A stretch of 64,000 nt of DNA from Eublepharis macularius. Lineage: Eukaryota > Chordata > Lepidosauria > Squamata > Eublepharidae. This document shows, piece after piece, positions 2,559 to 63,529 of this stretch. The notes below the pieces were generated by a model. The model did not search any database, was not told the DNA's origin, and worked only from the letters and a program-made list of their open reading frames with translations. Both the position numbers and the translations under genes were made by a program. How positions within the stretch are numbered: position 1 is the stretch's first letter; each line of letters begins with the position of its first letter. The DNA lies in contig NC_072793.1 in assembly GCF_028583425.1 (NCBI RefSeq), positions 173,391,681 through 173,455,680 on the forward strand, given 5' to 3'.

Positions 2559-4700
2559 CTGAAATGAGAAAGAACTTCTAAGGGCAAACTTCTAAGGGAT
2601 CTATAATTACTTGCTTGCTTTTAGGATTCAAACCTCTATCAGACCGTTTCATTTTTTGTCTATTAAGCAGGACAGATAGCAGGAAGGGGAAAGAGGCAAA
2701 AAGAGAGAGTGAGAGAGAGATTCTTTCTGACCTGGGGGGGGTAGAGGGAGGCACCCAAGGTCAGGATCCTCAGTTCCACACTTACTGAGTCCTGCTGCAT
2801 GGAAGCGGCTTTTTCTCTGCCACCAAGTGATGATAAAGAAGATATCACTGGTTTTAAGGCTTCACCTAAACGAATTGGAAGATAACTGTTCACGTGAAGA
2901 ATTCAGAAATGCAAATGAAAGTCGTATTTTCTCCTGCCTGTTCGATAGATTCTCATAATATCATCATTGTTAATCTCGATCAGTTTTTCTCATCTTGGAC
3001 TGATTTTAAATCAATTCCAGGTGTTTCCTTCCTCAGGCCTTTTGAGGGTACCTTTGATTTTTAAAATGAGAAACTAGAGCAAAGCATTTTCCCCCACAAA
3101 GGACTTGGGAGTCATAGGGAGTTCATGGAGAGGGGAAAAAAAGATTCTCCCTCTCTTGGTTCATGGTCATAACAATCCTTACATCCGTGTTTCGGAAATT
3201 TTTTCACTTCAAATCTTTGTCCAATCTTCTTGCACAGCATATATAAAATTATGGCCTGTTTGTCCAATGGTACTGAGTTCACCTGAAGAACTCAGAAAAG
3301 CAAGGAACAGGCAGTTCTAAATCCTGTGACCAAACCTCCGCTCCCATCCCAGAATTTCTTTGCATGTGGTCAAGATCAGCACAAATGGAAAAAGAGTTGC
3401 AATTAGTGAAGCAGCAACAGTTATCCTCTTGATCCCCTACAGAGTGTTTATGTCGTATTTTGATCACATAAGTGAACAGCTGAGATCTATTGTGAATCAA
3501 TCACTAACTCAGGACACCTTTCCCCAGTCGCTCGAACAGGCAGTTATCTGTCCACTAATTAAAAAACCATCCCTAGACATAGCTGATGTGGCCAATTATC
3601 GCCCAGTCTCTAATCTGCCCTTTCTAGGCAAAGTGATTAAGAGAGCAGTAGCTGACCAACTCCAGATCTTCTTGGAAAACTCTAGCGCTCTAGACCCTTT
3701 CCAGTCTGGATTCAGACCAGGGCATGGGACAGAGACAGCTCTAGTAGCATTAGTGGATGATCTCCGTCTGTATATAGACAAAGGCCATGCCTCCTTATTG
3801 CTCCTCCTGGATCAGTCTGCAGCCTTTGACACAGTGGACCATGCCATCCTGTTTAGGCATGTAGAAACAGAGCTGGGCATCAAAGGATGTGCCTTGGACT
3901 GGTTTAAATCATTTCTCATGGAACGGACTCAAAGGGTGGATGTTGGAGATCAGCTATCTCTAGAATGGGAACTCTCCTGTGGGGCCCTGCAGGGTGCAAT
4001 CTTACTTCCCATGTTATTCAAAACTCTATGTAAAACCTTTAGAACTCATTCGCAGCTATGGAGCTGGATGTTACCTGGAAAAGTTGTTCCTTTATAATAG
4101 TCCTGCGCGATCCTTTTCTGCACCTGAAACAGAAGTGGGAATACCAGAAAAGGGAAACTGATGAGAAAAGGATGAGGAAGCAGGCTGGGGGGGAATTCAA
4201 AAACGGTTAGGGCGATCCGTGTGGATTTTGAGGGTGTTTTTGGTCATACTCTATGTCCCAGATACTACTTAGTGAAACCCTCTCACCTGCTGGTCCTGCT
4301 TCTCACCCTCTGCCTGGCTCAGGAGGAAGCCTTCGGCCAGGGCTACCGCCTGGGAGCTGCTCTCCGGCCCGCATTCCCTGACCCAGCTCTCCATCTCCGG
4401 GGGCAGGACGGCCAGGAGCTGCTCCAGGAGCACCAGGTCCAGCATCTCCTTCTTGCTGTGCCTTTCTGGCTTCAGCCACTGGAGGCACAAATGGTGGAGT
4501 TGGCTGCAAACCTCTCGGGGCCCCTTAGCCTCCTGGTAACAGAACTGCCTGAAGTGCTGGCGTGGCACATCTGAAGGGAAGTTGTCGTCTCCCAGGCTCC
4601 TCTGCACGGTTCCTTCCCACAATCCCCTTCTGCTCCCAGCCTGGGTGGCATCAGGGCCTTTTCTAGCTTTTGGATCAGCTGGGTCTGTCTCTCCCTCCAT
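2432..4700 (-). CDS. Gene A: SCAN-KRAB zinc-finger gene, 5' coding exons only (finger exon off-window)
   Basis: This is the 5' coding part of a nuclear transcription-factor gene of the SCAN-KRAB-C2H2 type. Exons on the minus strand are 4700-4287 (start ATG and SCAN), 4123-4075, 2865-2786 and 2558-2432 (KRAB). The exon lengths after SCAN (49, 80, 127 bp) and phases (0/0, 0/1, 1/0, 0/1) match genes B, C and D exactly, and no stop lies in the joined frame. SCAN domains pair with other SCAN proteins and KRAB domains normally recruit TRIM28 to silence chromatin; both roles are inferred from the families. The intron between the 49- and 80-bp exons holds an antisense L2 LINE that reaches to within a few bases of the 49-bp exon's donor, which could affect splicing. 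The finger array should lie just left of base 1. Confidence 0.8.
2786..2865 (-). CDS. Gene A 80-bp linker exon
   Basis: The exon has a TTTAG acceptor and a consensus GTAAGT donor. It encodes a linker around [19 protein letters not shown] and ends MQQDS. Length and phase are identical in the three sister genes. Confidence 0.78.
3460..4070 (+). mobile_element. L2-clade LINE fragment (reverse transcriptase), antisense in gene A intron
   Basis: The translation shows non-LTR reverse transcriptase motifs of the L2/CR1 kind: [29 protein letters not shown] and a motif-A-like [10 protein letters not shown]. The same insertion, with the same left junction after GTCGTATTTT, sits in gene D at 54775-56526. 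Gene C keeps the empty site near 41515. The right end here is missing: LINE sequence breaks off and continues directly into the donor side of the 49-bp exon. This copy is a truncated non-coding relic. Confidence 0.85.
4075..4123 (-). CDS. Gene A 49-bp exon
   Basis: The exon encodes [16 protein letters not shown] plus one base. The acceptor ends TTTCAG and the donor is GTAAC. Its 3' intron flank is unusual, because L2 LINE sequence starts within about five bases of the donor. Confidence 0.75.
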
Positions 4701-15300: not shown

Positions 15301-16794
15301 AGGTCCTTGGGCCACGGAAACATCTTCCAGGACTTGGTACAACGCTAATGCTAAAAGAATGCGAGTTTCCTCAGCTGCTCTGAAAGGCCCTTGAGAAGGT
15401 CCCGTTGACGTCCCATAAACTGTTACGGAGGCCAATCCTTCTGCCTTCCCTGCTTTCAATGGATTTTTATCTGCACTCAAGATTTTGGGCCTCTGAAGAA
15501 CAAAGGGCCTGCTCAGTCCTCCATGGTGAGTTTGGGAGGAGAGGAAGGAGTTATTCCTTTTGGCTGACTTGGGAAGTCCACTACATACACCAAGCCCCTT
15601 CCTTGCCTGTGTTTGGATCTGCTCCACTGCCCTACTGAAAGCCTCTGTTGAAAGAGTCCTACTAGAGTATTTCATTAGCATCTGTGACTCAAGAGAAAGG
15701 AGAACCTTACCCAGAGAGGCCACATTCTGACGGTTGTCCTCCATGACCTCCTTGTGAAGGCGTCTTTGGTCCGGATCCAGCAGCGCCCACTCCTCCTCCG
15801 TGAAGTGCACAGACACCTCCTCCAAGGTCACTGGACCCTGAAATGAGAAAGAACTGCTAAGGGCAAACTTCTAAGGGGTCTATAATTAGATGTTTGCTTT
15901 CAGGATTCAAACCGCTTTCATTTTCTGCCTAGTGAGCAGGACAGATAGCAGGAAGGGGAAAGAGAGAGCGAGAGAGAGATTCTTTCTGACGGGGGAGGCA
16001 CCCAGGGTCAGTTCCACACTTACCGAGTCCTGCTGCATGGAAGTGGCTTTTTCTCTGCCACACAATGATACCAAAGAAGATATCACTGGTTTCAAGGCAC
16101 CACCTAAAAGAATGAGAAGATAACTGGAATGCATTCTGGCCTCAAGGAGGACATTGAGTGGGCACGACACCACTTTTGATGTTACCTGGAAAAGTTGTTC
16201 CGTTATAACTCTCCTGCGCGATCCTCTCCTGCACCTGAAAGAGAAGGGGGGATAAGGAAGGAAGACTGAGGAGAAAAGGAAGAGAAAACAGGCTGGGAGG
16301 AATTCTAAAACAGTAAGGGCAATCCGTGTGGATTTTGAGGGTGTCTTTGCCCCAGACACTACCGGGTGAAACCCTCTTACCTGCTGCTCCTGCTTCTTCT
16401 CCTCTGCCTGGCTCAGGAGGAAGCCTTCTGCCAGGGCCACCGCCTGGGAACTGCTCTCCGGCCTGCATCCCCGGACCCAGTTCTCCATCTCCGGGGGCAG
16501 GACAGCCAGGAGCTGCTCCAGGAGCACCAGGTCCAGCATCTCCCTCTTGCTGTGCCTTTCCGGCTTCAGCCACTGGAGACACAAATGGTGGAGTTGGCTG
16601 CAAACCTCTCTGGGCCCTTTAGCCTCCTGGTAGCAGAACTTCCTGAAGTGCTGGCGCGGCACATCTGAAGGGAAGCGGTCGTTTCCCAGGCTCCTCTGCA
16701 CGGTTCCTTCCCATGGTCCCCCTCTACTCTCAGCCTCGGTGGAAACAGGGCCTTTTCTGGCTTTTGGATCAGCTGGGTCTGTCTCTCCCCTCAT
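10878..16794 (-). CDS. Gene B: SCAN-KRAB zinc-finger protein, 727 aa (using SCAN copy 1)
   Basis: The minus-strand join is 16794-16381, 16234-16186, 16103-16024, 15837-15711 and 12391-10878. It totals 2184 bp and is open throughout. The order is a short acidic N-terminus, SCAN, linker, KRAB A-box, spacer and 16 C2H2 fingers. It should act in the nucleus as a sequence-specific DNA-binding repressor, with SCAN mediating dimerisation (family knowledge). The protein ends just after finger 16 (KGKKTYA and stop). Compared with gene D, two bases are missing there, so the extra C-terminal fingers kept by C and D are lost. Four more SCAN exons lie upstream (18758-26425), and the promoter block is at 28723-28843, so this coding model is only one of several possible splice forms. 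Confidence 0.82.
12392..15710 (-). other. Gene B intron between KRAB and finger exons
   Basis: No supported exon. The 12519-12818 segment has an open frame (around [13 protein letters not shown]) shared with gene C and gene A but deleted in gene D. KRAB phase 1 joins the finger exon without it. L2-derived sequence near 13500 and 14350 is partly duplicated, an 11-bp tandem tract (about three units) is at 13566-13600, and a Penelope terminal repeat is inserted at 13899-14228. Confidence 0.65.
13899..14228 (+). mobile_element. Penelope-like terminal-repeat insertion with hammerhead-type motif (330 bp)
   Basis: It is flanked by a 14-bp direct duplication (AGGTTTTATTATTG at 13885 and 14229). Collinear introns of genes A, C and D lack it. 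Near 14140 it has CTCTGAAGATGCCAGC, a hairpin closed by GCTGGC, and GAAACGTC, which fits the hammerhead order CUGANGA, stem II, GAAA, GUC. A short reversed piece of the element's tail sits at the left end. Confidence 0.8.
15711..15837 (-). CDS. Gene B KRAB A-box exon (127 bp)
   Basis: It encodes [20 protein letters not shown], then [18 protein letters not shown]. The acceptor is TTTCAG and the donor GTAAGG. It is the only KRAB exon for the five SCAN exons upstream. Confidence 0.92.
16024..16103 (-). CDS. Gene B 80-bp linker exon
   Basis: Encodes a linker starting [19 protein letters not shown], with a TTTAG acceptor and GTAAGT donor. The phase joins cleanly to both neighbours. Confidence 0.8.
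16186..16234 (-). CDS. Gene B 49-bp exon
   Basis: Encodes [16 protein letters not shown] plus one base. It is the only copy: the tandem amplification breakpoint (16291) lies just upstream, so SCAN copies 2-5 would all have to splice to this exon. Confidence 0.8.
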
Positions 16795-16848
16795 CTTCCC
16801 TTCCTCTTCGCCAGATTCTTCTATAAAGGCAAGTGCTGGACCAATGAC
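16381..16848 (-). CDS. Gene B SCAN exon, copy 1
   Basis: The 468-bp exon (156 codons) starts in phase 0 after CTGCAG and ends in phase 0 at CAG/GTAAGA. The start ATG at 16794 gives [14 protein letters not shown]. The SCAN domain is complete, from [15 protein letters not shown] to [13 protein letters not shown]. It is 36 bp shorter than in genes A, C and D, because a stretch upstream of the ATG is missing. Confidence 0.88.
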
Positions 16849-17278
16849 CTGCAGCAAAGCCAACACTGAGTCAACCTGCAGCAAAGCCAACACTGAGTCA
16901 ACCTGCAGCAAAGCCAACACTGAGTCAACCTGCAGCAAAGCCAACACTGAGTCAACCTGCAGCAAAGCCAACACTGAGTCAACCTGCAGCAAAGCCAACA
17001 CTGAGTCAACCTGCAGCAAAGCCAACACTGAGTCAACCTGCAGCAAAGCCAACACTGAGTCAACCTGCAGCAAAGCCAACACTGAGTCAACCTGCAGCAA
17101 AGCCAACACTGAGTCAACCTGCAGCAAAGCCAACACTGAGTCAACCTGCAGCAAAGCCAACACTGAGTCAACCTGCAGCAAAGCCAACACTGAGTCAACC
17201 TGCAGCAAAGCCAACACTGAGTCAACCTGCAGCAAAGCCAACACTTAGTCAACCTGCAGCAAAGCCAACACTTAGTCA
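16847..17278 (-). repeat. 27-bp minisatellite, 16 units
   Basis: Sixteen 27-bp units adjoin SCAN copy 1. On the minus strand each unit ends in CTGCAG followed by GT, matching the SCAN acceptor, and codes VDSVLALLQ in the SCAN frame. Each carries an AP-1-like TGAGTCA, except the two distal units, which have TTAGTCA and therefore a stop in that frame. Confidence 0.97.
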
Positions 17279-17956
17279 TAGATTTTTAACAAAAGAGCAT
17301 CTGAAGAGGTGAGCTCCGACTCACAAAAGCTCTTGCAAGAGTCGTGGGTGTCAGTAAATAAGGAGCCAGAAGAACTTCAATACAGTTAGCAGAAAGGATC
17401 TACTCTGCTCAACAAATGTATTGCTAAAATATAAACTAGAGATCCTGGAAGCATTCACCAACCAGAGAACACCACCTGGGACCAGGAGCATGGTGCCAAT
17501 TTACAAGGAGGTTAGAAAAAGGGACTGAGAGCCTCCCCAAAGGCTCTGATGAAATTAACAAACCCTCTGAGGAGCAATCTGTGCCTGCTAGTGCAGAGAG
17601 GTATAATTGATAGAGGCTTCGGCTCTGCCTTTTTGAACTAGGCTTCCAGGCTAATCACTGCGTCTCCCTTCACTTGAGGCTCCTCATGTCAGATGTCTCC
17701 TGTAGAGACTCTCTTCATAGGGCCCTTTAATGTGAAAAGTGTTGTTCACTGTAAGTTGCTCAAGGTCCCAATGCTGGATTTAATTAATGATTTTTAGTCT
17801 TCTCTGTATGTTACGCAACTAGACCTACACATGTGGGGCCCCCCACGCTCCGACCATCCCCCTTGTGTATCAGGCCAAAGATTGTGTCTGGGATAATTAA
17901 ATAAATCCAGGCCGAACCATCTGGGATATACCAGGGTCCCAACTTGGAACAACTCT

Positions 17957-17957
17957 C

Positions 17958-17997
<40 letters not shown>

Positions 17998-18120
17998 CTG
18001 TGTTTATATACCGCTCTTCTAGATAGATTAGTGGCTCACCCAGAGCGGTGAACAAGTTAGTTATTATTATCCCCCCACAATACAGCTGGGGAGCTGGGGC
18101 TGAGAGGAGTGGCTGTGTCA
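17957..18120 (-). mobile_element. SINE 3' tail with (CAA)n, repeated in every gene B unit
   Basis: The minus-strand order is CAGCTGGGGAGCTGG-like sequence, ACCGCTCT, CTAGAAGAGCGGTATATAAA, then (GTT)n. The same tail ends the tRNA-derived SINE at about 60570-60720. It is absent from genes A, C and D, so it entered the gene B lineage before amplification. Sister copies are at about 20224, 22545, 24868 and 27317, with variable CAA number. Confidence 0.7.
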
Positions 18121-18420
18121 TGACTGTGCCACATCCATGCCATTAATTTGCTATGTTTTAGCTATGCGTTGATTTGCTAAGTTTCTTTGCTGTGCCTTGA
18201 TATTACATTGTAGTTGTTCTCATCTAAATTCCTTTCAGAGGCCTGTGAAGCATCTTATCTTCCTTGGGAATGTCTCCCTCAGCGCTGCAACCTTGTCTCT
18301 GCAGCTGTGTATGCTAAAGGTGTTTTGATTTAATGTCTTCCTGATAATTAGACAAAGCCTCTTTGTTTCCCTGAGAATTCTGTCTGAGCTTTTCCCGCTC
18401 AGGGAAAAGGGCCCGAAAGA
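18121..18420. other. Unclassified insertion specific to gene B units
   Basis: About 300 bp (TATGTTTTAGCTATGCG through TTTCCCGCTCAGGG) with no counterpart in the collinear introns of genes A and C. It is repeated in all five units. No reading frame, tRNA or recognised terminal structure was seen. Confidence 0.4.
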
Positions 18421-18757
18421 GTCATACTTCACTTGACCCTGAGGAGAGGAATGTCCCACCCAGAGGGAAGGGAGGCTTTCAAGTGAAGTCCACTTCACAG
18501 CGGCAATGATTCCAGAGGGGGAAGGAAGTCCAAGCCAGAGAGGTTCAGTGATTCTGGCAAGGAATTCCAGGCAACTCAGGGGGATATTATTTTCACCCAG
18601 GCCACTGGCAGCCAAATCAGAGAAGCTTCAGGGTAGGGTAAATATGGGGATCCCTGTGGAAGAATCTGGCTGGAAGGAATTCTAAAACAGTAAGGGCAAT
18701 CCGTGTGGATTTTGAGGGTGTCTTTGCCCCAGACACTACCGGGTGAAACCCTCTTAC

Positions 18758-19225
18758 CTGCTGCTCCTGCTTCTTCTCCTCTGCCTGGCTCAGGAGGAAG
18801 CCTTCTGCCAGGGCCACCGCCTGGGAACTGCTCTCCGGCCTGCATCCCCGGACCCAGTTCTCCATCTCCGGGGGCAGGACAGCCAGGAGCTGCTCCAGGA
18901 GCACCAGGTCCAGCATCTCCCTCTTGCTGTGCCTTTCCGGCTTCAGCCACTGGAGACACAAATGGTGGAGTTGGCTGCAAACCTCTCTGGGCCCTTTAGC
19001 CTCCTGGTAGCAGAACTTCCTGAAGTGCTGGCGCGGCACATCTGAAGGGAAGCGGTCGTTTCCCAGGCTCCTCTGCACGGTTCCTTCCCATGGTCCCCCT
19101 CTACTCTCGGCCTCGGTGGAAACAGGGCCTTTTCTGGCTTTTGGATCAGCTGGGTCTGTCTCTCCCCTCATCTTCCCTTCCTCTTCGCCAGATTCTTCTA
19201 TAAAGGCAAGTGCTGGACCTATGAC
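18758..19225 (-). CDS. Gene B SCAN exon, copy 2
   Basis: 468 bp, phase 0-0, ATG at 19171, donor GTAAGA. The SCAN domain is intact. A longer open frame runs from an ATG at 19603, inside the hammerhead remnant, through 12 minisatellite units into SCAN. No 49-bp, KRAB or finger exon follows within its own unit. Confidence 0.75.
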
Positions 19226-19547
19226 CTGCAGCAAAGCCAACACTGAGTCAACCTGCAGCAAAGCCAACACTGAGTCAACCTGCAGCAAAGCCAACACTGA
19301 GTCAACCTGCAGCAAAGCCAACACTGAGTCAACCTGCAGCAAAGCCAACACTGAGTCAACCTGCAGCAAAGCCAACACTGAGTCAACCTGCAGCAAAGCC
19401 AACACTGAGTCAACCTGCAGCAAAGCCAACACTGAGTCAACCTGCAGCAAAGCCAACACTGAGTCAACCTGCAGCAAAGCCAACACTGAGTCAACCTGCA
19501 GCAAAGCCAACACTGAGTCAACCTGCAGCAAAGCCAACACTGAGTCA
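19224..19547 (-). repeat. 27-bp minisatellite, 12 units
   Basis: Twelve units, all with TGAGTCA and all open in the SCAN frame. The distal end runs into TATGACTCAGTG, which keeps the frame open to the upstream ATG. Confidence 0.97.
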
Positions 19548-20227
19548 TAGATTTTTAACAAAAGAGCATCTGAAGAGGTGAGCTCCGACTCACAAAAGCT
19601 CATGCAAGAGTCGTGGGTGTCAGTAAATAAGGAGCCAGAAGAACTTCAATACAGTTAGCAGAAAGGATCTACTCTGCTCAACAAATGTATTGCTAAAATA
19701 TAAACTAGAGATCCTGGAAGCATTCACCAACCAGAGAACACCACCTGGGACCAGGAGCATGGTGCCAATTTACAAGGAGGTTAGAAAAAGGGACTGAGAG
19801 CCTCCCCAAAGGCTCTGATGAAATTAACAAACCCTCTGAGGAGCAATCTGTGCCTGCTAGTGCAGAGAGGTATAATTGATAGAGGCTTCGGCTCTGCCTT
19901 TTTGAACTAGGCTTCCAGGCTAATCACTGCGTCTCCCTTCACTTGAGGCTCCTCATGTCAGATGTCTCCTGTAGAGACTCTCTTCATAGGGCCCTTTAAT
20001 GTGAAAATTGTTGTTCACTGTAAGTTGCTCAAGGTCCCAATGCTGGATTTAATTAATGATTTTTAGTCTTCTCTGTATGATACGCAACTAGACCTACACA
20101 TGTGGGGCCCCCCACGCTCCGACCATCCCCCTTGTGTATCAGGCCAAAGACTTGTGTCTGGGATAATTAAATAAATCCAGGCCGAACCATCTGGGATATA
20201 CCAGGGTCCCAACTTGGAACAACTCTC

Positions 20228-20264
<37 letters not shown>

Positions 20265-21024
20265 CTGTGTTTATATACCGCTCTTCTAGATAGATTAGTG
20301 GCTCACCCAGAGCGGTGAACAAGTTAGTTATTATTATCCCCCCACAATACAGCTGGGGAGCTGGGGCTGAGAGGAGTGGCTGTGTCATGACTGTGCCACA
20401 TCCATGCCATTAATTTGCTATGTTTTAGCTATGCGTTGATTTGCTAAGTTTCTTTGCTGTGCCTTGATATTACATGGTAGTTGTTCTCATCTAAATTCCT
20501 TTCAGAGGCCTGTGAAGCATCTTATCTTCCTTGGGAATGTCTCCCTCAGCGCTGCAACCTTGTCTCTGCAGCTGTGTATGCTAAAGGTGTTTTGATTTAA
20601 TGTCTTCCTGATAATTAGACAAAGCCTCTTTGTTTCCCTGAGAATTCTGTCTGAGCTTTTCCCGCTCAGGGAAAAGGGCCCGAAAGAGTCATACTTCACT
20701 TGACCCTGAGGAGAGGAATGTCCCACCCAGAGGGAAGGGAGGCTTTCAAGTGAAGTCCACTTCACAGCGGCAATGATTCCAGAGGGGGAAGGAAGTCCAA
20801 GCCAGAGAGGTTCAGTGATTCTGGCAAGGAATTCCAGGCAACTCAGGGGGATATTATTTTCACCCAGGCCACTGGCAGCCAAATCAGAGAAGCTTCAGGG
20901 TAGGGTAAATATGGGGATCCCTGTGGAAGAATCTGGCTGGAAGGAATTCTAAAACAGTAAGGGCAATCCGTGTGGATTTTGAGGGTGTCTTTGCCCCAGA
21001 CACTACCGGGTGAAACCCTCTTAC

Positions 21025-21492
21025 CTGCTGCTCCTGCTTCTTCTCCTCTGCCTGGCTCAGGAGGAAGCCTTCTGCCAGGGCCACCGCCTGGGAACTGCTC
21101 TCCGGCCTGCATCCCCGGACCCAGTTCTCCATCTCCGGGGGCAGGACAGCCAGGAGCTGCTCCAGGAGCACCAGGTCCAGCATCTCCCTCTTGCTGTGCC
21201 TTTCCGGCTTCAGCCACTGGAGACACAAATGGTGGAGTTGGCTGCAAACCTCTCTGGGCCCTTTAGCCTCCTGGTAGCAGAACTTCCTGAAGTGCTGGCG
21301 CGGCACATCTGAAGGGAAGCGGTCGTTTCCCAGGCTCCTCTGCACGGTTCCTTCCCATGGTCCCCCTCTACTCTCGGCCTCGGTGGAAACAGGGCCTTTT
21401 CTGGCTTTTGGATCAGCTGGGTCTGTCTCTCCCCTCATCTTCCCTTCCTCTTCGCCAGATTCTTCTATAAAGGCAAGTGCTGGACCTATGAC
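21025..21492 (-). CDS. Gene B SCAN exon, copy 3
   Basis: 468 bp, phase 0-0, ATG at 21438, SCAN domain intact. The extended open frame starts at 21924. The protein sequence is the same as copy 2 by eye. Confidence 0.75.
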
Positions 21493-21868
21493 CTGCAGCA
21501 AAGCCAACACTGAGTCAACCTGCAGCAAAGCCAACACTGAGTCAACCTGCAGCAAAGCCAACACTGAGTCAACCTGCAGCAAAGCCAACACTGAGTCAAC
21601 CTGCAGCAAAGCCAACACTGAGTCAACCTGCAGCAAAGCCAACACTGAGTCAACCTGCAGCAAAGCCAACACTGAGTCAACCTGCAGCAAAGCCAACACT
21701 GAGTCAACCTGCAGCAAAGCCAACACTGAGTCAACCTGCAGCAAAGCCAACACTGAGTCAACCTGCAGCAAAGCCAACACTGAGTCAACCTGCAGCAAAG
21801 CCAACACTGAGTCAACCTGCAGCAAAGCCAACACTGAGTCAACCTGCAGCAAAGCCAACACTGAGTCA
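21491..21868 (-). repeat. 27-bp minisatellite, 14 units
   Basis: Fourteen units, each with TGAGTCA and CTGCAG, open in the SCAN frame. Confidence 0.97.
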
Positions 21869-22548
21869 TAGATTTTTAACAAAAGAGCATCTGAAGAGGT
21901 GAGCTCCGACTCACAAAAGCTCATGCAAGAGTCGTGGGTGTCAGTAAATAAGGAGCCAGAAGAACTTCAATACAGTTAGCAGAAAGGATCTACTCTGCTC
22001 AACAAATGTATTGCTAAAATATAAACTAGAGATCCTGGAAGCATTCACCAACCAGAGAACACCACCTGGGACCAGGAGCATGGTGCCAATTTACAAGGAG
22101 GTTAGAAAAAGGGACTGAGAGCCTCCCCAAAGGCTCTGATGAAATTAACAAACCCTCTGAGGAGCAATCTGTGCCTGCTAGTGCAGAGAGGTATAATTGA
22201 TAGAGGCTTCGGCTCTGCCTTTTTGAACTAGGCTTCCAGGCTAATCACTGCGTCTCCCTTCACTTGAGGCTCCTCATGTCAGATGTCTCCTGTAGAGACT
22301 CTCTTCATAGGGCCCTTTAATGTGAAAATTGTTGTTCACTGTAAGTTGCTCAAGGTCCCAATGCTGGATTTAATTAATGATTTTTAGTCTTCTCTGTATG
22401 ATACGCAACTAGACCTACACATGTGGGGCCCCCCACGCTCCGACCATCCCCCTTGTGTATCAGGCCAAAGACTTGTGTCTGGGATAATTAAATAAATCCA
22501 GGCCGAACCATCTGGGATATACCAGGGTCCCAACTTGGAACAACTCTC

Positions 22549-22585
<37 letters not shown>

Positions 22586-23345
22586 CTGTGTTTATATACC
22601 GCTCTTCTAGATAGATTAGTGGCTCACCCAGAGCGGTGAACAAGTTAGTTATTATTATCCCCCCACAATACAGCTGGGGAGCTGGGGCTGAGAGGAGTGG
22701 CTGTGTCATGACTGTGCCACATCCATGCCATTAATTTGCTATGTTTTAGCTATGCGTTGATTTGCTAAGTTTCTTTGCTGTGCCTTGATATTACATGGTA
22801 GTTGTTCTCATCTAAATTCCTTTCAGAGGCCTGTGAAGCATCTTATCTTCCTTGGGAATGTCTCCCTCAGCGCTGCAACCTTGTCTCTGCAGCTGTGTAT
22901 GCTAAAGGTGTTTTGATTTAATGTCTTCCTGATAATTAGACAAAGCCTCTTTGTTTCCCTGAGAATTCTGTCTGAGCTTTTCCCGCTCAGGGAAAAGGGC
23001 CCGAAAGAGTCATACTTCACTTGACCCTGAGGAGAGGAATGTCCCACCCAGAGGGAAGGGAGGCTTTCAAGTGAAGTCCACTTCACAGCGGCAATGATTC
23101 CAGAGGGGGAAGGAAGTCCAAGCCAGAGAGGTTCAGTGATTCTGGCAAGGAATTCCAGGCAACTCAGGGGGATATTATTTTCACCCAGGCCACTGGCAGC
23201 CAAATCAGAGAAGCTTCAGGGTAGGGTAAATATGGGGATCCCTGTGGAAGAATCTGGCTGGAAGGAATTCTAAAACAGTAAGGGCAATCCGTGTGGATTT
23301 TGAGGGTGTCTTTGCCCCAGACACTACCGGGTGAAACCCTCTTAC

Positions 23346-23813
23346 CTGCTGCTCCTGCTTCTTCTCCTCTGCCTGGCTCAGGAGGAAGCCTTCTGCCAGG
23401 GCCACCGCCTGGGAACTGCTCTCCGGCCTGCATCCCCGGACCCAGTTCTCCATCTCCGGGGGCAGGACAGCCAGGAGCTGCTCCAGGAGCACCAGGTCCA
23501 GCATCTCCCTCTTGCTGTGCCTTTCCGGCTTCAGCCACTGGAGACACAAATGGTGGAGTTGGCTGCAAACCTCTCTGGGCCCTTTAGCCTCCTGGTAGCA
23601 GAACTTCCTGAAGTGCTGGCGCGGCACATCTGAAGGGAAGCGGTCGTTTCCCAGGCTCCTCTGCACGGTTCCTTCCCATGGTCCCCCTCTACTCTCAGCC
23701 TCGGTGGAAACAGGGCCTTTTCTGGCTTTTGGATCAGCTGGGTCTGTCTCTCCCCTCATCTTCCCTTCCTCTTCGCCAGATTCTTCTATAAAGGCAAGTG
23801 CTGGACCTATGAC
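23346..23813 (-). CDS. Gene B SCAN exon, copy 4
   Basis: 468 bp, phase 0-0, ATG at 23759, SCAN intact. The extended open frame starts at 24245. Confidence 0.75.
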
Positions 23814-24189
23814 CTGCAGCAAAGCCAACACTGAGTCAACCTGCAGCAAAGCCAACACTGAGTCAACCTGCAGCAAAGCCAACACTGAGTCAACCTGCAG
23901 CAAAGCCAACACTGAGTCAACCTGCAGCAAAGCCAACACTGAGTCAACCTGCAGCAAAGCCAACACTGAGTCAACCTGCAGCAAAGCCAACACTGAGTCA
24001 ACCTGCAGCAAAGCCAACACTGAGTCAACCTGCAGCAAAGCCAACACTGAGTCAACCTGCAGCAAAGCCAACACTGAGTCAACCTGCAGCAAAGCCAACA
24101 CTGAGTCAACCTGCAGCAAAGCCAACACTGAGTCAACCTGCAGCAAAGCCAACACTGAGTCAACCTGCAGCAAAGCCAACACTGAGTCA
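23812..24189 (-). repeat. 27-bp minisatellite, 14 units
   Basis: Fourteen units with the same consensus as copy 3. Copies 3 and 4 look like the most recent duplication, because array length and flanks agree. Confidence 0.97.
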
Positions 24190-25268
24190 TAGATTTTTAA
24201 CAAAAGAGCATCTGAAGAGGTGAGCTCCGACTCACAAAAGCTCATGCAAGAGTCGTGGGTGTCAGTAAATAAGGAGCCAGAAGAACTTCAATACAGTTAG
24301 CAGAAAGGATCTACTCTGCTCAACAAATGTATTGCTAAAATATAAACTAGAGATCCTGGAAGCATTCACCAACCAGAGAACACCACCTGGGACCAGGAGC
24401 ATGGTGCCAATTTACAAGGAGGTTAGAAAAAGGGACTGAGAGCCTCCCCAAAGGCTCTGATGAAATTAACAAACCCTCTGAGGAGCAATCTGTGCCTGCT
24501 AGTGCAGAGAGGTATAATTGATAGAGGCTTCGGCTCTGCCTTTTTGAACTAGGCTTCCAGGCTAATCACTGTGTCTCCCGTCACTTGAGGCTCCTCATGT
24601 CAGATGTCTCCTGTAGAGACTCTCTTCATAGGGCCCTTTAATGTGAAAAGTGTTGTTCACTGTAAGTTGCTCAAGGTCCCAATGCTGGATTTAATTAATG
24701 ATTTTTAGTCTTCTCTGTATGTTACGCAACTAGACCTACACATGTGGGGCCCCCCACGCTCCGACCATCCCCCTTGTGTATCAGGCCAAAGATTTGTGTC
24801 TGGGATAATTAAATAAATCCAGGCCGAACCATCTGGGGTATACCAGGGTCCCAACTTGGAACAACTCTCACAACAACAACAACATCAACAACAACTGTGT
24901 TTATATACCACTCTTCTAGATAGACTAGTGCCTCACTCAGAGCGGTGAACAAGTTAGTGTTATTATTATCCCCCCACAATACAGCTGGGGAGCTGGGGCC
25001 GAGAGGAGTGGCTGTGTCATGACTGTGCCCCATTCATGCCATTAATTTGCTATGTTTTAGCTATGCGTTGATTTGCTAAGTTTCTTTGCTGTGCCTTGAT
25101 ATTACATTGTAGTTGTTCTCATCTAAATTCCTTTCAGAGGCCTGTGAAGCATCTTATCTTCCTTGGGAATGTCTCCCTCAGCGCTGCAACCTTGTCTCTG
25201 CAGCTGTGTATGCTAAAGGTGTTTTGATTTAATGTCTTCCTGATAATTAGACAAAGCCTCTTTGTTTC

Positions 25269-25557
25269 GATGTATTGTCGAAGGCTTTCACGGCCGGAGA
25301 ACGATGGTTGTTGGGGGTTTTCCGGGCTGTATTGCCGTGGTCTTGGCATTGTAGTTCCTGACGTTTCGCCAGCAGCTGTGGCTGGCATCTTCAGAGGTGT
25401 AGCACCAAAAGAGAGATCAGAGGTGTAGCACCAAAAGAGAGATCTCTGTCTTTTGGTGCTACACCTCTGAAGATGCCAGCCACAGCTGCTGGCGAAACGT
25501 CAGGAACTACAATGCCAAGACCACGGCAATACAGCCCGGAAAACCCCCAACAACCAT
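25269..25557. mobile_element. Inverted pair of Penelope terminal repeats (289 bp) in unit 4 only
   Basis: Two terminal-repeat pieces lie head to head, forming a near-palindrome around 25430. The flanks are a 12-bp direct duplication, CCTCTTTGTTTC (25257 and 25558). Units 1-3 and 5 keep one uninterrupted copy of that target, so the insertion followed amplification. Both arms contain the hammerhead-type CTGAAGA...GAAACGTC arrangement, one on each strand. Confidence 0.88.
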
Positions 25558-25957
25558 CCTCTTTGTTTCCCTGAGAATTCTGTCTGAGCTTTTCCCGCTC
25601 AGGGAAAAGGGCCCGAAAGAGTCATACTTCACTTGACCCTGAGGAGAGGAATGTCCCACCCAGAGGGAAGGGAGGCTTTCAAGTGAAGTCCACTTCACAG
25701 CGGCAATGATTCCAGAGGGGGAAGGAAGTCCAAGCCAAAGAGGTTCAGTGATTCTGGCAAGGAATTCCAGGCACCTCTGGGGGATATTATTTTCACCCAG
25801 GCCATGCGCAGCCAAATCAGAGAGGCTTCTGGGTAGGGTAAATATGGGGATCCCTGTGGGAGAATCTGGCTGGAAGGAATTCTAAAATAGTAAGGGCAAT
25901 CAGTGTGGATTTTGAGGGTGTCTTTGCCCCAGACACTACCGGGTGAAACCCTCTTAC

Positions 25958-26425
25958 CTGCTGCTCCTGCTTCTTCTCCTCTGCCTGGCTCAGGAGGAAG
26001 CCTTCTGCCAGGGCCACCGTCTGGGAGCTGCTCTCCGGCCTGCATCCCCGGACCCAGTTCTCCATCTCCGGGGGCAGGACAGCCAGGAGCTGCTCCAGGA
26101 GCACCAGGTCCAGCATCTCCCTCTTGCTGTGCCTTTCCGGCTTCAGCCACTGGAGACACAAATGGTGGAGTTGGCTGCAAACCTCTCTGGGCCCTTTAGC
26201 CTCCTGGTAGCAGAACTTCCTGAAGTGCTGGCGCGGCACATCTGAAGGGAAGCGGTCGTTTCCCAGGCTCCTCTGCACGGTTCCTTCCCATGGTCCCCCT
26301 CTACTCTCGGCCTCGGTGGAAACAGGGCCTTTTCTGGCTTTTGGATCAGCTGGGTCTGTCTCTCCCCTCATCTTCCCTTCCTCTTCGCCAGATTCTTCTA
26401 TAAAGGCAAGTGCTGGACCTATGAC
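25958..26425 (-). CDS. Gene B SCAN exon, copy 5 (nearest the promoter)
   Basis: 468 bp, phase 0-0, ATG at 26371, donor GTAAGA. One SCAN residue differs from copies 1-4 (A to T before VALAEGF). As the first SCAN exon met by a transcript from 28.8 kb, it is the likeliest partner of exon 1 if splicing follows order. The extended frame starts at 26695. Confidence 0.75.
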
Positions 26426-26639
26426 CTGCAGCAAAGCCAACACTGAGTCAACCTGCAGCAAAGCCAACACTGAGTCAACCTGCAGCAAAGCCAACACTGA
26501 GTCAACCTGCAGCAAAGCCAACACTGAGTCAACCTGCAGCAAAGCCAACACTGAGTCAACCTGCAGCAAAGCCAACACTGAGTCAACCTGCAGCAAAGCC
26601 AACACTGAGTCAACCTGCAGCAAAGCCAACACTGAGTCA
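26424..26639 (-). repeat. 27-bp minisatellite, 8 units
   Basis: Eight units, all with TGAGTCA and CTGCAG and open in the SCAN frame. It is the shortest array of the five. Confidence 0.97.
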
Positions 26640-26657
26640 TAGATTTTTAACAAAAGA

Positions 26658-26697
26658 GCATCTGAAGAGGTGAGCTCTGACTCACAAAAGCTCATGC
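26658..26697 (+). repeat. Hammerhead-like PLE remnant supplying an antisense ATG (copy 5)
   Basis: On the plus strand: GCAT, CTGAAGA, a hairpin closed by GTGAG/CTCAC, AAAA in place of GAAA, then GCTCATGC, which pairs with the leading GCAT as stem I. On the minus strand the same 40 bp contain the ATG (26695) that opens the long minisatellite-SCAN frame. The core G is changed, so self-cleavage is unlikely. Confidence 0.6.
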
Positions 26698-28012
26698 AAG
26701 AGTCGTGGGTGTCAGTAAATAAGGAGCCAGAAGAACTTCAATACAGTTAGCAGAAAGGATCTACTCTGCTCAACAAATGTATTGCTAAAATATAAACTAG
26801 AGATCCTGGAAGCATTCACCAACCAGAGAACACCACCTGGGACCAGGAGCATGGTGCCAATTTACAAGGAGGTTAGAAAAAGGGACTGAGAGCCTCCCCA
26901 AAGGCTCTGATGAAATTAACAAACCCTCTGAGGAGCAATCTGTGCCTGCTAGTGCAGAGAGGTATAATTGATAGAGGCTTCGGCTCTGCCTTTTTGAACT
27001 AGGCTTCCAGGCTAATCACTGTGTCTCCCGTCACTTGAGGCTCCTCATGTCAGATGTCTCCTGTAGAGACTCTCTTCATAGGGCCCTTTAATGTGAAAAG
27101 TGTTGTTCACTGTAAGTTGCTCAAGGTCCCAATGCTGGATTTAATTAATGATTTTTAGTCTTCTCTGTATGTTACGCAACTAGACCTACACATGTGGGGC
27201 CCCCCACGCTCCGACCATCCCCCTTGTGTATCAGGCCAAAGATTTGTGTCTGGGATAATTAAATAAATCCAGGCCGAACCATCTGGGGTATACCAGGGTC
27301 CCAACTTGGAACAACTCTCACAACAACAACAACAACAACAACTGTGTTTATATACCACTCTTCTAGATAGACTAGTGCCTCACTCAGAGCGGTGAACAAG
27401 TTAGTGTTATTATTATCCCCCCACAATACAGCTGGGGAGCTGGGGCTGAGAGGAGTGGCTGTGTCATGACTGTGCCCCATTCATGCCATTAATTTGCTAT
27501 GTTTTAGCTATGCGTTGATTTGCTACGTTTCTTTGCTGTGCCTTGATATTACATTGTAGTTGTTCTCATCTAAATTCCTTTCAGAGGCCTGTGAAGCATC
27601 TTATCTTCCTTGGGAATGTCTCCCTCAGCGCTGCAACCTTGTCTCTGCAGCTGTGTATGCTAAAGGTGTTTTGATTTAATGTCTTCCTGATAATTAGACA
27701 AAGCCTCTTTGTTTCCCTGAGAATTCTGTCTGAGCTTTTCCCGCTCAGGGAAAAGGGCCCGAAAGAGTCATACTTCACTTGACCCTGAGGAGAGGAATGT
27801 CCCACCCAGAGGGAAGGGAGGCTTTCAAGTGAGGTCCACTCCATAGCGGGAATGACTCCAGAGGAGCAAGACAGTCCAAGCCAGAGAGGTTCAGTGATTT
27901 GGCAAGGAATTCCAGGCAACTCAGGGGGATATTATTTTCACCCAGGCCCCTCGCAGCCAAATCAGAGAGGCTTCTGGGTAGGGTAAATATGGGGATCCCT
28001 GTGGGAGAATCT

Positions 28013-28722
28013 GTTCGTTGGGGACCATGGCTCACTTTTTAATGCTGGATTTTAACAGCTTTTAATCCTGTTTCATTTTTATGATGTTCTACTTTTTAAA
28101 ACTGCCTCAGGCAGGTTCCCTAGAGAGGCAGCATACAAATTCTCTCACTAAAGAAATAAATATCTTTGCCGTGCAAGAAAGCAAAGCCAGGCGGAGTTTT
28201 GTGGCTGGTTTGAGAAACCCGAGCTGGACATGTGACTTTGGGAAGCTAAGAAAGGCTCAGATTGTCCCAGGAGTCCACGATCAGAAAAGAGAGACCAATT
28301 TCCGGAAGCAAAAGATCCTGCATTAGCGAAGGCAAGAGAAGCGTGCCAAGCTGCAGCAGAGGGGCGAGGGGAACCCTCCAAAAATCCAAGCTTGCTCTTC
28401 CAGTAAAAGAAGAAAAACACCCGCTGCCATGTTAAGAGTTTGTAGAAAGCAGCAGAATGCTGAGACAAACAGCGGAAGGTACATGCTGTGTTTTAGGAAG
28501 AACTCAGCCCAGTCTCCAGTGAGGAGGCACCAGAAAGAAGCAGGAAATCTCATTCAAAAGAAAATCCTCAGGTTAATAATGTCATAACCAATAAGCTATA
28601 CTTGATAAAATCAGATGTTACCTAGTAGCTACTCACCCCCCCACCCCCAAATGCAGCCACCCCTGTGGACCATTCGCCTTTCATAAGCAGGGAGGTATTT
28701 TGCGAAGGAAATACAATTTTAC
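28013..28722 (-). other. Gene B first-intron part outside the amplicon
   Basis: Ancestral first-intron sequence collinear with 43790-44585 (gene C) and 58010-59195 (gene D). No exon is supported. Confidence 0.5.
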
Positions 28723-28843
28723 CTGTTTAAAGATCCGTGAATGCCTACTTCACCCAAGCGCTCTAAAAGGAAGTGACTGCGGCATGTCAGGTGGCCTCTC
28801 TTATGGCCTCTCTAGGAATGGAATCTGCTTGCCTTTAACCCTT
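28723..28843 (-). promoter_or_regulatory. Gene B promoter block and candidate exon 1
   Basis: The minus-strand order is GGGTTAAAGG, ATTCCTAGAGAGGCC, CCACCTGACATGCC, CACTTCC, then a TTTAAACAG/GTAAAATTG donor at 28723/28722. It is the only such block for gene B and its five SCAN exons. Confidence 0.62.
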
Positions 28844-28899
28844 GGATCGACTCCATAAAGCAGAAAGGACCCTCTCCGCAAGCAGAATCTGACCCACTA

Positions 28900-29350
28900 A
28901 CATCAATCAGACTTCAGGGAAGGCCTGTTAGCATAAGAAAGGATCAGATTGTCCCAGGAGTCCATCATGGCAAGAGAGAGACAGATTTCCAGAAGCCAAA
29001 TATCTTACATTAGCAAAAGCTGGGGAAGTTTGCCAAGCTTTTAAAGTCACCCAGGTTGGAAAAAGCTGTGCTGAGTGGGTAGGCGGATTTGTGTTTAACA
29101 TAATAAGCATCATTCAAGTTTATGCCTCAACTACAGATGCTGAGGAGGAAAACGTTGAAAACTTTTGTGCAAGAAAAAATTGATCATACACCTAAACAAG
29201 ATATGCTGACGATCATAGGTGACTGGAATGCAAAAGTAGGAGACAAAGCAGAATCAAACATGGTTGGAAATTTGGGGCTAGGATCATGAAATGAAGCAGG
29301 AGAGCGACTCATAGAATTTTGTGAAGGCAACAACCTGTGTGTTGCTGGCA
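28900..29350 (+). mobile_element. RTE/BovB LINE endonuclease fragment
   Basis: The plus-strand translation includes TIIGDWNAKVGDKAESNMV and LIEFCEGNNL, with frame breaks. It lies back to back with the gene B promoter, as at genes A, C and D. Confidence 0.72.
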
Positions 29351-31295: not shown

Positions 31296-32855
31296 GTAGG
31301 AGACCTCGGCCCTAGATCCCTTCCAGTCTGGTTTGTGCCCAAGATATGGGGTCGAGACACTGCTGGTCGCCCTCACAGATGATCTCTGCAGGCATCAGGA
31401 TCGGGGCAGATTGGCACTGCTGATTTTATTGGATCTGTCAGCAGCATTCGATATGGTTGATTATGATCTTTTGACCCACCGCCTCGCCAATGTGGGGATA
31501 CAGGGGACAGCGTTGCAGTGGCTAATCTCCTTTCTCCATAATTGGGGACAGAGGGTGGCGGTTGGGGAGAGGTTATCATCCCGTAGGCCACTAGTATGTG
31601 GTGTGCCACAGGGAGCGACACTCTCCCCATTATTGTTTAATATCTATATATGCCCCCTCGCCCAGCTGGTGCCGAGTTTCGGGCTTGGGTATCACCAATA
31701 TGCGGATGACACCCAGCTTTATCTGTTGTTGGACGGCCAGCCTGGATCAACACCGGGTGTCCTGGAGCGTGCTTTTAAGGCTGTGGCTGGATGGTTGAGA
31801 CAAAGTCAGCTGAAGCTGAAACCTATGAAGATGGAGATCATGTACCTGAGTCGTGGAAGGATGGGTTCGGGACCCTGGCTTCCTACACTTGATGGGGCAG
31901 TGCTTACACTGGCCCCGAGTTAGGAGCCTGGGGGTGATTCTTGATCCCTCCCTGAAGATGATCAGATCACTGCAGTTGCCAGGTCTTCTTTTTACTATTT
32001 TGACAAGCCAGGCAACTTGCCCCCTATCTATCGTCCTGCGACTTGACTACAGTGGTCCAAGCAATGGTCACCTCTAGGCTGGACTACTACAACGCACTCT
32101 ACGCTGGGCTTCCCATGAACTTGATCTGGCGGTTACAACTGGCACAGAATGCAGCGGTGCGGGTCATCGTTGGAGCACCGGTATGGGGGCAATATTACAC
32201 CGGTGTTGCGCCAGCTGCATTGGTTGCTGGTGGAGTACCGAATCAGGTTCAAGGTTTTGGTACTAACTTATAAAGCCCTATGCGGACTGGGACCGACGTA
32301 TCTGTGGGACCGTCTCTCCCCATATGAGCCCTAGAGGTCCCTTTGTTCATGTAATAAACATCTATTAAAGGTCCCTGGCCCTAGGGAGGCCCGCCTGGCA
32401 TTGGACAGGGCCTTCTTGGTCCTAGCCCCAGCCTGGTAGAACGCTCTGTCTCATGAGACCAGGGCCCGGCAAGACTTGTTAACATTTTGCTGGGCCTGTA
32501 AGATGGAGTTGTTCTGCCAGGCATATGGTTGATGCTAAACAGTGCCCTCCTTAGATTGGGGGGGGGGTTAAACCATATGCCCTCCCATGCAATGTCGTTG
32601 TCCATCTTTTTATATTTTTGTTCTGGGAAGAACTGCTGTATGGAACATCCAAATCAAATGATGTGCTGCCTTGTTTCTTTGCTCTTTATGTGTATATATA
32701 TATATATATATTTATATAAATGTAATTTTAATGATAAGATGTAGTACTTTTATAATTTTAATGTTAGTTAAACATGTTTTAAATTGTGTTATTATCCACC
32801 CTGAGCCTGCTGATGTGGGGAGGGCGGAGTATAAATCCAATAAACTAAATTAAAT
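31296..32855 (+). mobile_element. L2-clade LINE, 5'-truncated, reverse transcriptase largely readable
   Basis: A 196-residue frame shows RT motif A ([17 protein letters not shown]), motif B (PQGATLSPLLFN) and the catalytic YADD (HQYADDTQLYLL). Frame breaks follow, then a tail with CACCCTGAGCCTGC and GGCGGAGTATAAAT. It splits sequence that is continuous at 49130-49200, so it inserted downstream of gene C's ancestor after that block was duplicated. The endonuclease end is missing and the copy is not autonomous. Confidence 0.88.
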
Positions 32856-51708: not shown

Positions 51709-54700
51709 CTGGAATAAAGAGAAAAGATCAGTAAAACCTTAAAGGAAATGCAGACTCAAGGCAAGAAGACCATTTACTGCTCTTTGTGATGACAGGACAG
51801 AAATCACTTTAAGAGATCAAATCCTGCCATGTATTATTCAGCTGTTGCTTTTTCATGTTTGGTCGTTTTGCCAGAGATAAGATGCAGTGAAACCTCCATG
51901 TTAAGAGGCAGGATGCTCAAATGTAGGGCAACATGTTAGGATGGATGCATAGTTTAAAAAGGCAGAGCTGGTGGAGATCGCTTCTCAGAGGGTTCGTTAA
52001 TTTAATTTCCTCCCCAAAGGGGAGGTGAAATTGAAAGAGACTTCAGGAAGGTAAAAATGAAATTAACAAGCTCTTTGTGAAGTGATCTCCGCTGGCTCTC
52101 TTTTAAAACCACCCTCAAGTAGAGAGGTGAAATCAATATAAATGATGATCCAGTTCTCCGGTGTTTCGGAGAGTATGTTATCACATATTAACGTTGAACT
52201 AGAACATTCATTAATTTTTGAGGAAGTTTATATAATTTTTATTTTTTTCCCTGTCTCCAGGTCTTGGAGCCAACCGATGGTAAACAAAAATGGACACACC
52301 GTGCTGATACTGTAGCTAAAAGACTTCTATTACAGCATTGGAGAGACAAATGAACACCTTCCATAGTTCAATCCATCCAATCCATAATTCAGTCCAATGG
52401 ATTGTGGACCTCACAACTTTATCAGTATTTGAACTCATGGCAGGTAGACAACTGCAGACGGAGTACATTTGGAAAACTTTTATGTGTAGATCTCCTACTA
52501 CTGTTGTCATATTATTTCTATTTTATATAAGGCTTTATTATTATATTATTCTTTTTACAAATAGGGCTTGAGTACTTGAGGGTTTACCATTTGCCAGATT
52601 GTCTCTCCCCGCTATAGAAGTCTGACTGTTTAGTCCTGCTCTCTGCTCTTACATAGGGGGAATGACAATCACTGGAGTTGGGGCCTTTTCAGTGCTGGCT
52701 CCTCATCTGTGGAATGCCTCCCCCCTTGAACCTTGCCCAGAGTTTACCTTTCTACCTTTCAACCACTAGGCTAAAACGCTTCTTTTTAACCAGGTTTCTG
52801 ACTAAGAGATTTAACATTTTAGCTGCTCAGTGCTCTGCTTCTCTTCGTTCTCTGGACATTTTTGAGGCTACTCCACAGCTAATTTATGCTGTTCCCTCTT
52901 GAGAAATTCCTCCATTCTCCAGTGGGTAAAGATTAGTAAAGAGGTCCTTATCCGGATACACCATAAAAAGGTTTGAACCACACAAATAAGTAGAGACCTG
53001 CTGATCTCTCTTCTTCCTATGTTTCAGAAAAATGGATTTCTATTTGATTACAGGATGGAAATAGAATGAGGTTTTGGAACCAGAAGTCCTTTCAAGGCTC
53101 AAAGTGGAGAACAGGAAGCAGCCAGACACTGGAAATCAGCAGGCAAAGCTCTTCTTCACGTAGAACGAAACCTCACCTGCTAAAATCTTGTTTTCTTGGC
53201 TTGTTCTTCAGGACTTTGCCACCCTGTTTTTGTACAAATGTGCACCACGCCTAAGCCTACACTGGTGTAAATATTAATGTAGTAGAATGATTAATGTAGT
53301 TAGAATGACCCTAAATCATCCCTTTGGGGCCCTCCCTCTCACAGTTATCCACCCTCATGTCCAATGGCAGATTGTAAGGTCCTTGGGTTAAGGAAATGTC
53401 TTCTTGGACATTGAGGGCCTAATACTAATATGAATACGAATACTAATACTAGTTTCCTCAGCTGTTCTGAAAGGCCCTTGAGAAGATTCAGTTGACACCC
53501 CATAAAGTGTTATGGAGGCCAATCCTTCTACCTTCCCTGCTTTCAATATCTGCACTCAAGATTTTGGGCCTCTGAAGAACAAAGAGCCTGCTCAGTCCAC
53601 CATGGTAAATTTGGGAGGGGGGGGGAGGAGCTTTCTTGGGGAGTCCACTACATACACCAAATCCCTTCCTTGCTTCTGTGTGTAGACCTGCTCCACTGCC
53701 CTACAGAGAATCTCTATTGCAAGAGTCCTACTGGAGTCCTTTTTAAGCATCTATGGAACAAAAGAAAGGAGAGCCTTACCCAAAGAGGCCACATTCTGAC
53801 GGTTGTCCTCCATGACCTCCTTGTGAAGGCGTCTTTGGTCTGGATCCAGCAGGGCCCACTCCTCCTCCGTGAAGTGCACAGACACCTCCTCAAAGGTCAC
53901 CAGGCCCTGAAAAGAGAAAGAACTGCTAAGGGCAAACTTCTAAGGGATCTACAATAAGATGTTTGCTTTCAGGATTCAAACCTCTATGAGACCTTTTCAT
54001 TTTCTGCCTAGTAAGCAGGAGAGATAGCAGGAAGGGGAAAGAGGCAAAAAGAGAACAAGAGAGAGATTCTTTCTGATCTGGGGTAGGTGGGGGTGGAGGG
54101 AGGCACCCAGGGTCAGGATCCTCAGTTCCACACTTACCGAGTCCTGCTGCATGGAAGCGGACTTTTCTCTGCCACAAAGTGATGCCAAAGAAGATATCAC
54201 TGGTTTCAAGGCACCACCTAAAAGAATTGGAAGATAACAGCAAATGAAAGTCGTATTTTCTCCAGTATGTTTAATAGATTCTCACAATATCTTCATTGTT
54301 AATCCCTATCAGTTTTTCTCATCTTGGATTGATTTTAAATCGATTCCAGGTGTTCCCTTCCCCAGGCCGTAATTTTTAAAATGAGAAACTAGAGCAAAGC
54401 ATTTTTCCCCACAAAGGACTTGGGAGTCATAGGGAGTTCATGGAGAGGGGAAAAAAAGATTCTCCCTCTCTTGGTTCATGGTCATAACAATCCTTACATC
54501 TGTGTTTTGGAATTTTTTTCACTTCAAATCTTTGTCCAATCTTCTTGCACATCATATATAAAATTATGGCCTGTTTGTCCAATGGTACTAAGTTCACGTG
54601 AAGAACTTGGAAATGCAAGGAACAGGCAGTTCTAAATCCTCTGACCGAACCTCCGCTCCCATCCCAGAATTTCTTTGCATGTGGTCAAGATCAGCACAAA

Positions 54701-63512: not shown

Positions 63513-63529
63513 GGAAGACTCGCCTTTCA

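Follow-up and report, generated by a model that had tools for sequence, protein, structure and literature searches.

A five-copy array of SCAN exons in a SCAN-KRAB zinc-finger gene

Analysis of a 64,000-nucleotide (nt) stretch of the Eublepharis macularius genome (assembly GCF_028583425.1, contig NC_072793.1, forward-strand positions 173,391,681 to 173,455,680; below, the window) revealed a zinc-finger gene, designated gene C, in which the SCAN exon is present in five tandem copies, all of them joinable in frame ahead of one KRAB exon and one finger exon. The best explanation of this arrangement, to which we give an even chance, is that the SCAN exon of an ordinary SCAN-KRAB-C2H2 gene was multiplied and that several SCAN exons are spliced in jointly. 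The minus strand of the window carries four tandem SCAN-KRAB zinc-finger genes, A, B, C and D, with their SCAN regions near 57 kb, 42 kb, 28 to 16 kb and 4.8 kb, respectively; the fingers of gene D lie past the window end. Gene C was identified as a SCAN-KRAB-16-finger gene with five tandem units of 2.1 to 2.6 kb, U5 to U1 in transcript order, which span positions 28013 to 16292 of the minus strand. An initial annotation of the window had located this array at 16291 to 28012; the array is present, and both of these boundaries were one base off.

All five SCAN exons are 468 bp long, follow a CAG acceptor, end in a CAG/GTAAGA donor, are phase 0 at both ends and have an open frame, in line with the annotation. 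The further proposal that any number of them could be joined to the single 49-bp exon was borne out, with all 31 non-empty subsets open through the 16 fingers to the stop codon at 10878. Counted from the first methionine, the predicted protein has 727 residues with one SCAN exon and 1,351 residues with five. Two of the five units were compared with Pfam and matched the SCAN family (PF02023), at 122.8 and 120.2 bits against a cut-off of 27. The encoded residues of the remaining three are those of U1, and the SCAN exon of U5 is one residue (A to T) apart from the other four. Positions 15837 to 15710 matched the KRAB family (PF01352) at 65.8 bits, and a single finger exon carries 16 C2H2 fingers in frame, as judged by motif.

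Origin of the array

Alignment of the units revealed mismatch rates of 0.3% between U1 and U2 or U3, 1.0 to 1.1% between U4 and U1 to U3, and 1.1 to 1.5% between U5 and the others. U2 and U3 show 0 mismatches over 2,267 bp and differ only by 54 bp of a minisatellite. The middle units are the most alike and the upstream edge unit is the most divergent, which fits unequal crossing-over. At a rate of 0.8e-9 per site per year, divergence from U3 corresponds to about 10 million years for U5, 7 million for U4, 2 million for U1 and less than 0.83 million for U2; these ages are minima because of homogenisation. U4 contains a private inverted-repeat insertion of about 300 bp (25573 to 25264), with related sequence at 14228 to 14107 and around 8202 to 8049.

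A single SCAN exon is present in each of the paralogues A, B and D. The upstream edge of the array is crossed by alignments to B and D and the downstream edge by alignments to A, B and D, which indicates that the single-copy state is ancestral and that the duplication took place inside gene C. At the unit junction, intron 2 is joined, 89 nt past the donor, to intron 1 sequence with about one shared base. The array is a recent duplication within gene C that grew by unequal crossing-over. A segment made up of the SCAN exon, its 3' splice site and the greater part of the intron ahead of it was duplicated once, with about 1 bp of microhomology at the junction, and the array was then raised to five copies by unequal crossing-over.

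Each SCAN exon of gene C is preceded by a 27-bp repeat that ends in the acceptor itself (copy numbers in Table 1). Read in the SCAN frame, this minisatellite has no stop and encodes VDSVLALLQ per copy, with the exception of the two outermost copies of U1 (TAA). Splicing to an outer acceptor would thus preserve the frame as well, at nine additional residues per copy. A 24-base core of the repeat has 62 exact matches genome-wide, all in the gene C array. The minisatellite was found neither in A, B and D nor in the 7 kb read at a further related gene, F, and thus expanded in gene C; its presence in all units suggests that it did so, most simply, before the units multiplied.

A young, length-variable array of this kind may be a neutral copy-number variant in the population, without any function under selection, however it is spliced. 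We lean slightly towards this possibility, under which multi-SCAN proteins could still be made. It accords with the identity of U2 and U3, the small distance of U1, the spread of the minisatellite from 8 to 16 copies and the position of the most divergent unit at the array edge, as unequal crossing-over predicts. Variable columns among the units are fewer in the exon (4 of 468) than elsewhere (39 of 1,674; p = 0.04), but this difference is lost without the first 200 columns (20 of 1,475; p = 0.48). The intact SCAN frame and splice sites in all copies, even in U5 and U4 at about 1% divergence, argue weakly against neutrality.

The start codon and the sequence ahead of it

Inspection of the SCAN exons revealed an ATG 54 nt past the acceptor, preceded by AAG, in all five copies. 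This start codon within each exon had been overlooked in the initial annotation. The window genes A, C and D, gene F and many related SCAN loci retain this ATG. It is missing from the SCAN exon of gene B (42436 to 41933, minus strand), which has ACG in its place and an in-frame TAA 15 codons past the acceptor, so that this exon offers no AUG start for SCAN.

The 54 nt ahead of the ATG are open and in phase in gene C. Over the corresponding 90 nt, A, D and F have no stop either, whereas B is interrupted by one. In a set of 22 SCAN exons at 21 other loci, some of the exons with other N-terminal types or without a start methionine (L001 to L007 were excluded for their other N-terminal types), six exons had an in-frame stop at most 12 codons ahead of the start methionine (L009, L011, L020, L024, L026 and L028). 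The SCAN donor was phase 0 in 21 of the 22, that is, wherever a donor was found.

Upstream of the array and outside the repeat unit, a conserved donor block marks a candidate 5' non-coding exon. The block has five copies in four genes (once each in A, B and C, twice in D). In gene D, the block and its donor lie twice upstream, at 7585 and 6748 of the minus strand. Just upstream of its donor, the candidate exon of gene C has a stop codon in the frame of SCAN, after which no ATG follows. Together with the lack of conservation of the upstream frame, this stop indicates that the first 54 nt of the SCAN exon are 5' untranslated region (5'UTR) by descent. Between A and D, this stretch shows eight nonsynonymous and four synonymous differences, a ratio like that of the coding part, and gives no clear sign for or against coding constraint. 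The frame neutrality on the 5' side is that of an ancestral 5'UTR that is open and in phase by luck and not by design. A search of the window for CpG islands as promoters, at our own thresholds, retained only 63401 to 63900 and none near gene C.

SCAN loci elsewhere in the genome

The 72 contigs of the assembly add up to 2.24 Gb; the one that holds the window, C4, is 188 Mb long. A genome search for the SCAN family returned 1,642 first-look candidates, which amounts to a very large SCAN expansion. Of the 150 candidates that were scored, most are on C4 and others on C2, C12, C14 and C19; none of 14 control genomes matched. A DNA search with one SCAN exon, with scores for the best 40 of 371 candidates, returned five copies at 100% (rounded), all in the array. 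The next best were gene F at 94%, D at 91%, A at 90%, B at 89% and gene E at 88%. Gene F is located about 23 kb past the left end of the window and has one SCAN exon in the 7 kb read.

Tandem SCAN exons were surveyed at 20 loci of 9.9 kb each, hand-picked from the 150 scored and situated at 173.3 to 174.5 and 185.5 to 186.2 Mb of C4. One of the 20, L016 (C4:173758500-173768400), carries a pair of SCAN exons 2.9 kb apart on the same strand, and its 9.9 kb read yielded no finger motif. Its copies are about 70% identical over 975 aligned bases, and the second has ACG for ATG and no stop across the domain. Like the exons of gene C, those of L016 share one strand with no finger motif found between them; unlike them, the L016 copies are far from identical and the second is out of phase. 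L016 is either an older duplicate that decayed to a non-joinable state or one that was never joinable. An exact motif gave 72 matches genome-wide, and same-strand neighbours less than 10 kb apart were limited to the array, L016 and one 6.2-kb pair. This pair was rejected as a tandem array, as it belongs to two genes with a finger exon between them. The exact motif recovers part of the SCAN family only, and other arrays may exist. As far as these searches reach, the array is a real, recent and singular SCAN-exon amplification in this genome.

One SCAN exon or several per transcript

Under the proposed mechanism, the region around 28.7 kb would serve as a single 5' non-coding exon, and transcripts would run through all five SCAN exons. 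With ordinary inclusion, translation of the mRNA would start at the ATG of U5 and continue in frame through the later SCAN exons. Each added SCAN would be connected by a linker of about 68 residues, 18 of them encoded by former 5'UTR. Full inclusion would yield five SCAN domains, one KRAB domain and 16 fingers, and exon skipping would yield shorter in-frame forms. Joint inclusion is expected because the exons share their splice sites, are multiples of three and are open throughout. Exon duplicates whose splice sites are intact tend to be included in the mRNA, and a search of the open-access literature on this subject returned no paper. The default expectation from these features would be mRNAs with two or more SCAN exons, mixed with skipped forms. 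The initial annotation had suggested proteins with one to five SCAN domains or an alternative choice among them; the sequence permits this and nothing was found that forces a single one, and the protein itself, which the annotation regarded as a multivalent zinc-finger protein of a new kind, stays a prediction.

The features that might enforce a single SCAN exon were searched for in gene C. No frame device exists, since all 31 subsets are in frame. A short-intron device was not found, as the introns between the SCAN exons measure 1.8 to 2.1 kb. A gapless scan for docking pairing between the unique flanking introns and, of the unit, the U2 intron only gave no complementarity above that of shuffled sequences: the best score of 16.4 compares with a highest shuffled score of 16.8 in 12 shuffles, and that of 13.0 with 13.6 in 60 shuffles. 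Exon copies of the Dscam type have usually diverged. Those of gene C differ from them in being nearly identical, frame neutral, well separated and without detected docking pairing. The likeness lies in head-to-tail exon copies within a gene, and PMC9013439 describes Dscam-type clusters as including one exon at a time.

The alternative is that each mRNA carries one SCAN exon, through skipping or through promoters within the units, and encodes an ordinary protein with the extra copies as passengers. We regard this as doubtful. The weak SCAN acceptors and the own ATG of each SCAN exon would suit such a gene, and the intron between U1 and the 49-bp exon, of only 146 nt, may favour U1. The second SCAN of L016, without an ATG and out of phase, is what would be expected of an unused copy, and L016 thus supports this outcome as a possible fate. 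Such single use is opposed by the absence of a frame penalty and of a short inter-SCAN intron, by the lack of docking pairing in the scan of the U2 intron and by the position of the candidate first exon outside the repeat unit.

Selection on the SCAN domain was estimated from the ratio of nonsynonymous to synonymous substitution rates (dN/dS) in the coding part. It was 0.36 between A and C (Fisher p = 0.002) and 0.34 between C and D (p = 0.004), which indicates that the domain is constrained in gene C.

Several observations weigh against joint inclusion or against its having been selected. The SCAN acceptor is weak, with 10 pyrimidines in 17 positions versus 13 to 16 in 17 at the other four acceptors of the gene, so that skipping is plausible. 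This strength is typical of the family (9 to 11 of 17 in A, B and D). In favour of inclusion, the donors read CAG/GTAAGA in the five array exons and CAG/GTGAGA in A, B and D. If all SCAN exons were skipped, an in-frame methionine would remain in the 80-bp exon, and a KRAB-finger protein could be made. The pair at L016 cannot be joined: the donor of its first exon and the acceptor of its second differ in phase, and joining leads to a frameshift and stops. When the genome was searched for SCAN-SCAN junctions in retrocopies (at most three mismatches), only the five genomic acceptors matched; the control junction of SCAN to the 49-bp exon was likewise without a match, and the search therefore says nothing on past splicing. 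The dN/dS of 0.59 between A and D is not significantly below 1 (p = 0.20), and values against B, which has lost the ATG, are 0.56 to 0.74, given without a significance test. The units themselves are too young and too similar to reveal selection for more than one SCAN.

An assembly artefact in copy number, with some units, above all U2 or U3, falsely duplicated, is improbable: the identity of these two units save for 54 bp of minisatellite would fit it, and five could then be four plus an assembly duplicate, but U5, U4 and U1 have private differences (including the insertion of U4), the assembly has 72 contigs, with the window in one of 188 Mb, and no near-identical copy was found elsewhere among the best 40 of 371 candidates scored, unlike what stray haplotype copies would give.

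The predicted protein and related systems

That gene C makes a concatenated multi-SCAN KRAB zinc-finger protein, with up to five SCAN domains in numbers that vary between isoforms and, through gain and loss of units in the array, between individuals, is a tentative proposal. The gene C SCAN matches five solved SCAN chains, the best being ZNF24 (E = 3e-24). Dimer-interface residues of the PEG3 SCAN are named in PMC3720700. On an alignment to PEG3 mapped by eye at 16 of the named positions, F49, R50, Y54, P60, R61, W74, L75, P77, K82, E92, Q93 and P99 are identical in gene C and H46, R68, E87 and Y94 are altered. Consecutive SCAN cores (Pfam range 62 to 149 of 156) would be separated by about 68 residues, a spacing that is probably sufficient for neighbouring SCAN domains to pair within one chain. 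Five domains might form two closed pairs and one free domain, and such pairing of identical adjacent domains could lower rather than raise the valency of the protein.

The order of SCAN, short linker exons, KRAB and fingers is that of ZKSCAN-type SCAN-KRAB-C2H2 genes, and gene C shares with related loci the start ATG inside the SCAN exon and the phase-0 SCAN donor. To our knowledge, known SCAN-KRAB-C2H2 members have one SCAN; gene C is unlike the ZKSCAN type in having five joinable SCAN exons ahead of one KRAB and one finger exon. In the open-access literature, no multi-SCAN protein was found among the matches listed, as judged by title, abstract start or term count. According to PMC4592553, SCAN is a dimer domain whose homology to a retrotransposon capsid domain is striking; what it does in mammalian KRAB zinc-finger proteins is described there as entirely unknown, and capsid targeting is raised as speculation.

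If the proposal is correct, gene C would offer, on a single DNA-binding protein, a set of capsid-derived pairing domains whose number varies in nature. One to five SCAN domains on the same fingers would form a natural dose series for self-pairing, partner choice and capsid binding. The open 5'UTR stretch lets unequal crossing-over shift the domain number in whole steps, which illustrates the ease with which a SCAN exon could multiply.

Features of gene C and other observations in the window

Table 1. Coordinates of the gene C features in the window
Feature	Position	Strand	Basis
Candidate 5' non-coding exon, outside the repeat unit; donor CAG/GTAAAA after 28723	28723..28900	-	inferred from conserved donor block
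Unit U5, first in transcript; 1.1% from U4, 1.5% from U1-U3	25869..28013	-	unit alignment
Minisatellite before U5 SCAN exon, 8 copies	26424..26639	-	repeat count
SCAN exon of U5, ATG at codon 19, A to T residue	25958..26425	-	sequence, Pfam, frame
Unit U4, private insertion of about 300 bp near 25573-25264	23257..25868	-	unit alignment
Minisatellite before U4 SCAN exon, 14 copies	23812..24189	-	repeat count
SCAN exon of U4	23346..23813	-	sequence
Unit U3, same as U2 save minisatellite length	20936..23256	-	unit alignment
Minisatellite before U3 SCAN exon, 14 copies	21491..21868	-	repeat count
SCAN exon of U3	21025..21492	-	sequence
Unit U2	18669..20935	-	unit alignment
Minisatellite before U2 SCAN exon, 12 copies	19224..19547	-	repeat count
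SCAN exon of U2	18758..19225	-	sequence
Unit U1, last, adjoins 49-bp exon	16292..18668	-	unit alignment
Minisatellite before U1 SCAN exon, 16 copies, two outermost with in-frame TAA	16847..17278	-	repeat count, frame
SCAN exon of U1	16381..16848	-	sequence, Pfam
49-bp exon, single	16186..16234	-	frame joining
80-bp exon, single	16024..16103	-	frame joining
KRAB exon, 127 bp	15711..15837	-	Pfam, frame joining
Finger exon, 16 C2H2 fingers and stop codon	10878..12391	-	motif, frame joining

At the right edge of the window, a SCAN exon in the opposite orientation (63722 to 64000, plus strand) adjoins the GC-rich and CpG-rich patch at 63401 to 63900 and is probably the start of a neighbouring gene. 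Reverse-transcriptase fragments matching Pfam RVT_1 are present on the plus strand at 3330 to 4097, 31300 to 31923 and 54645 to 55226, within or between the zinc-finger genes, and are probably remnants of long interspersed nuclear elements.

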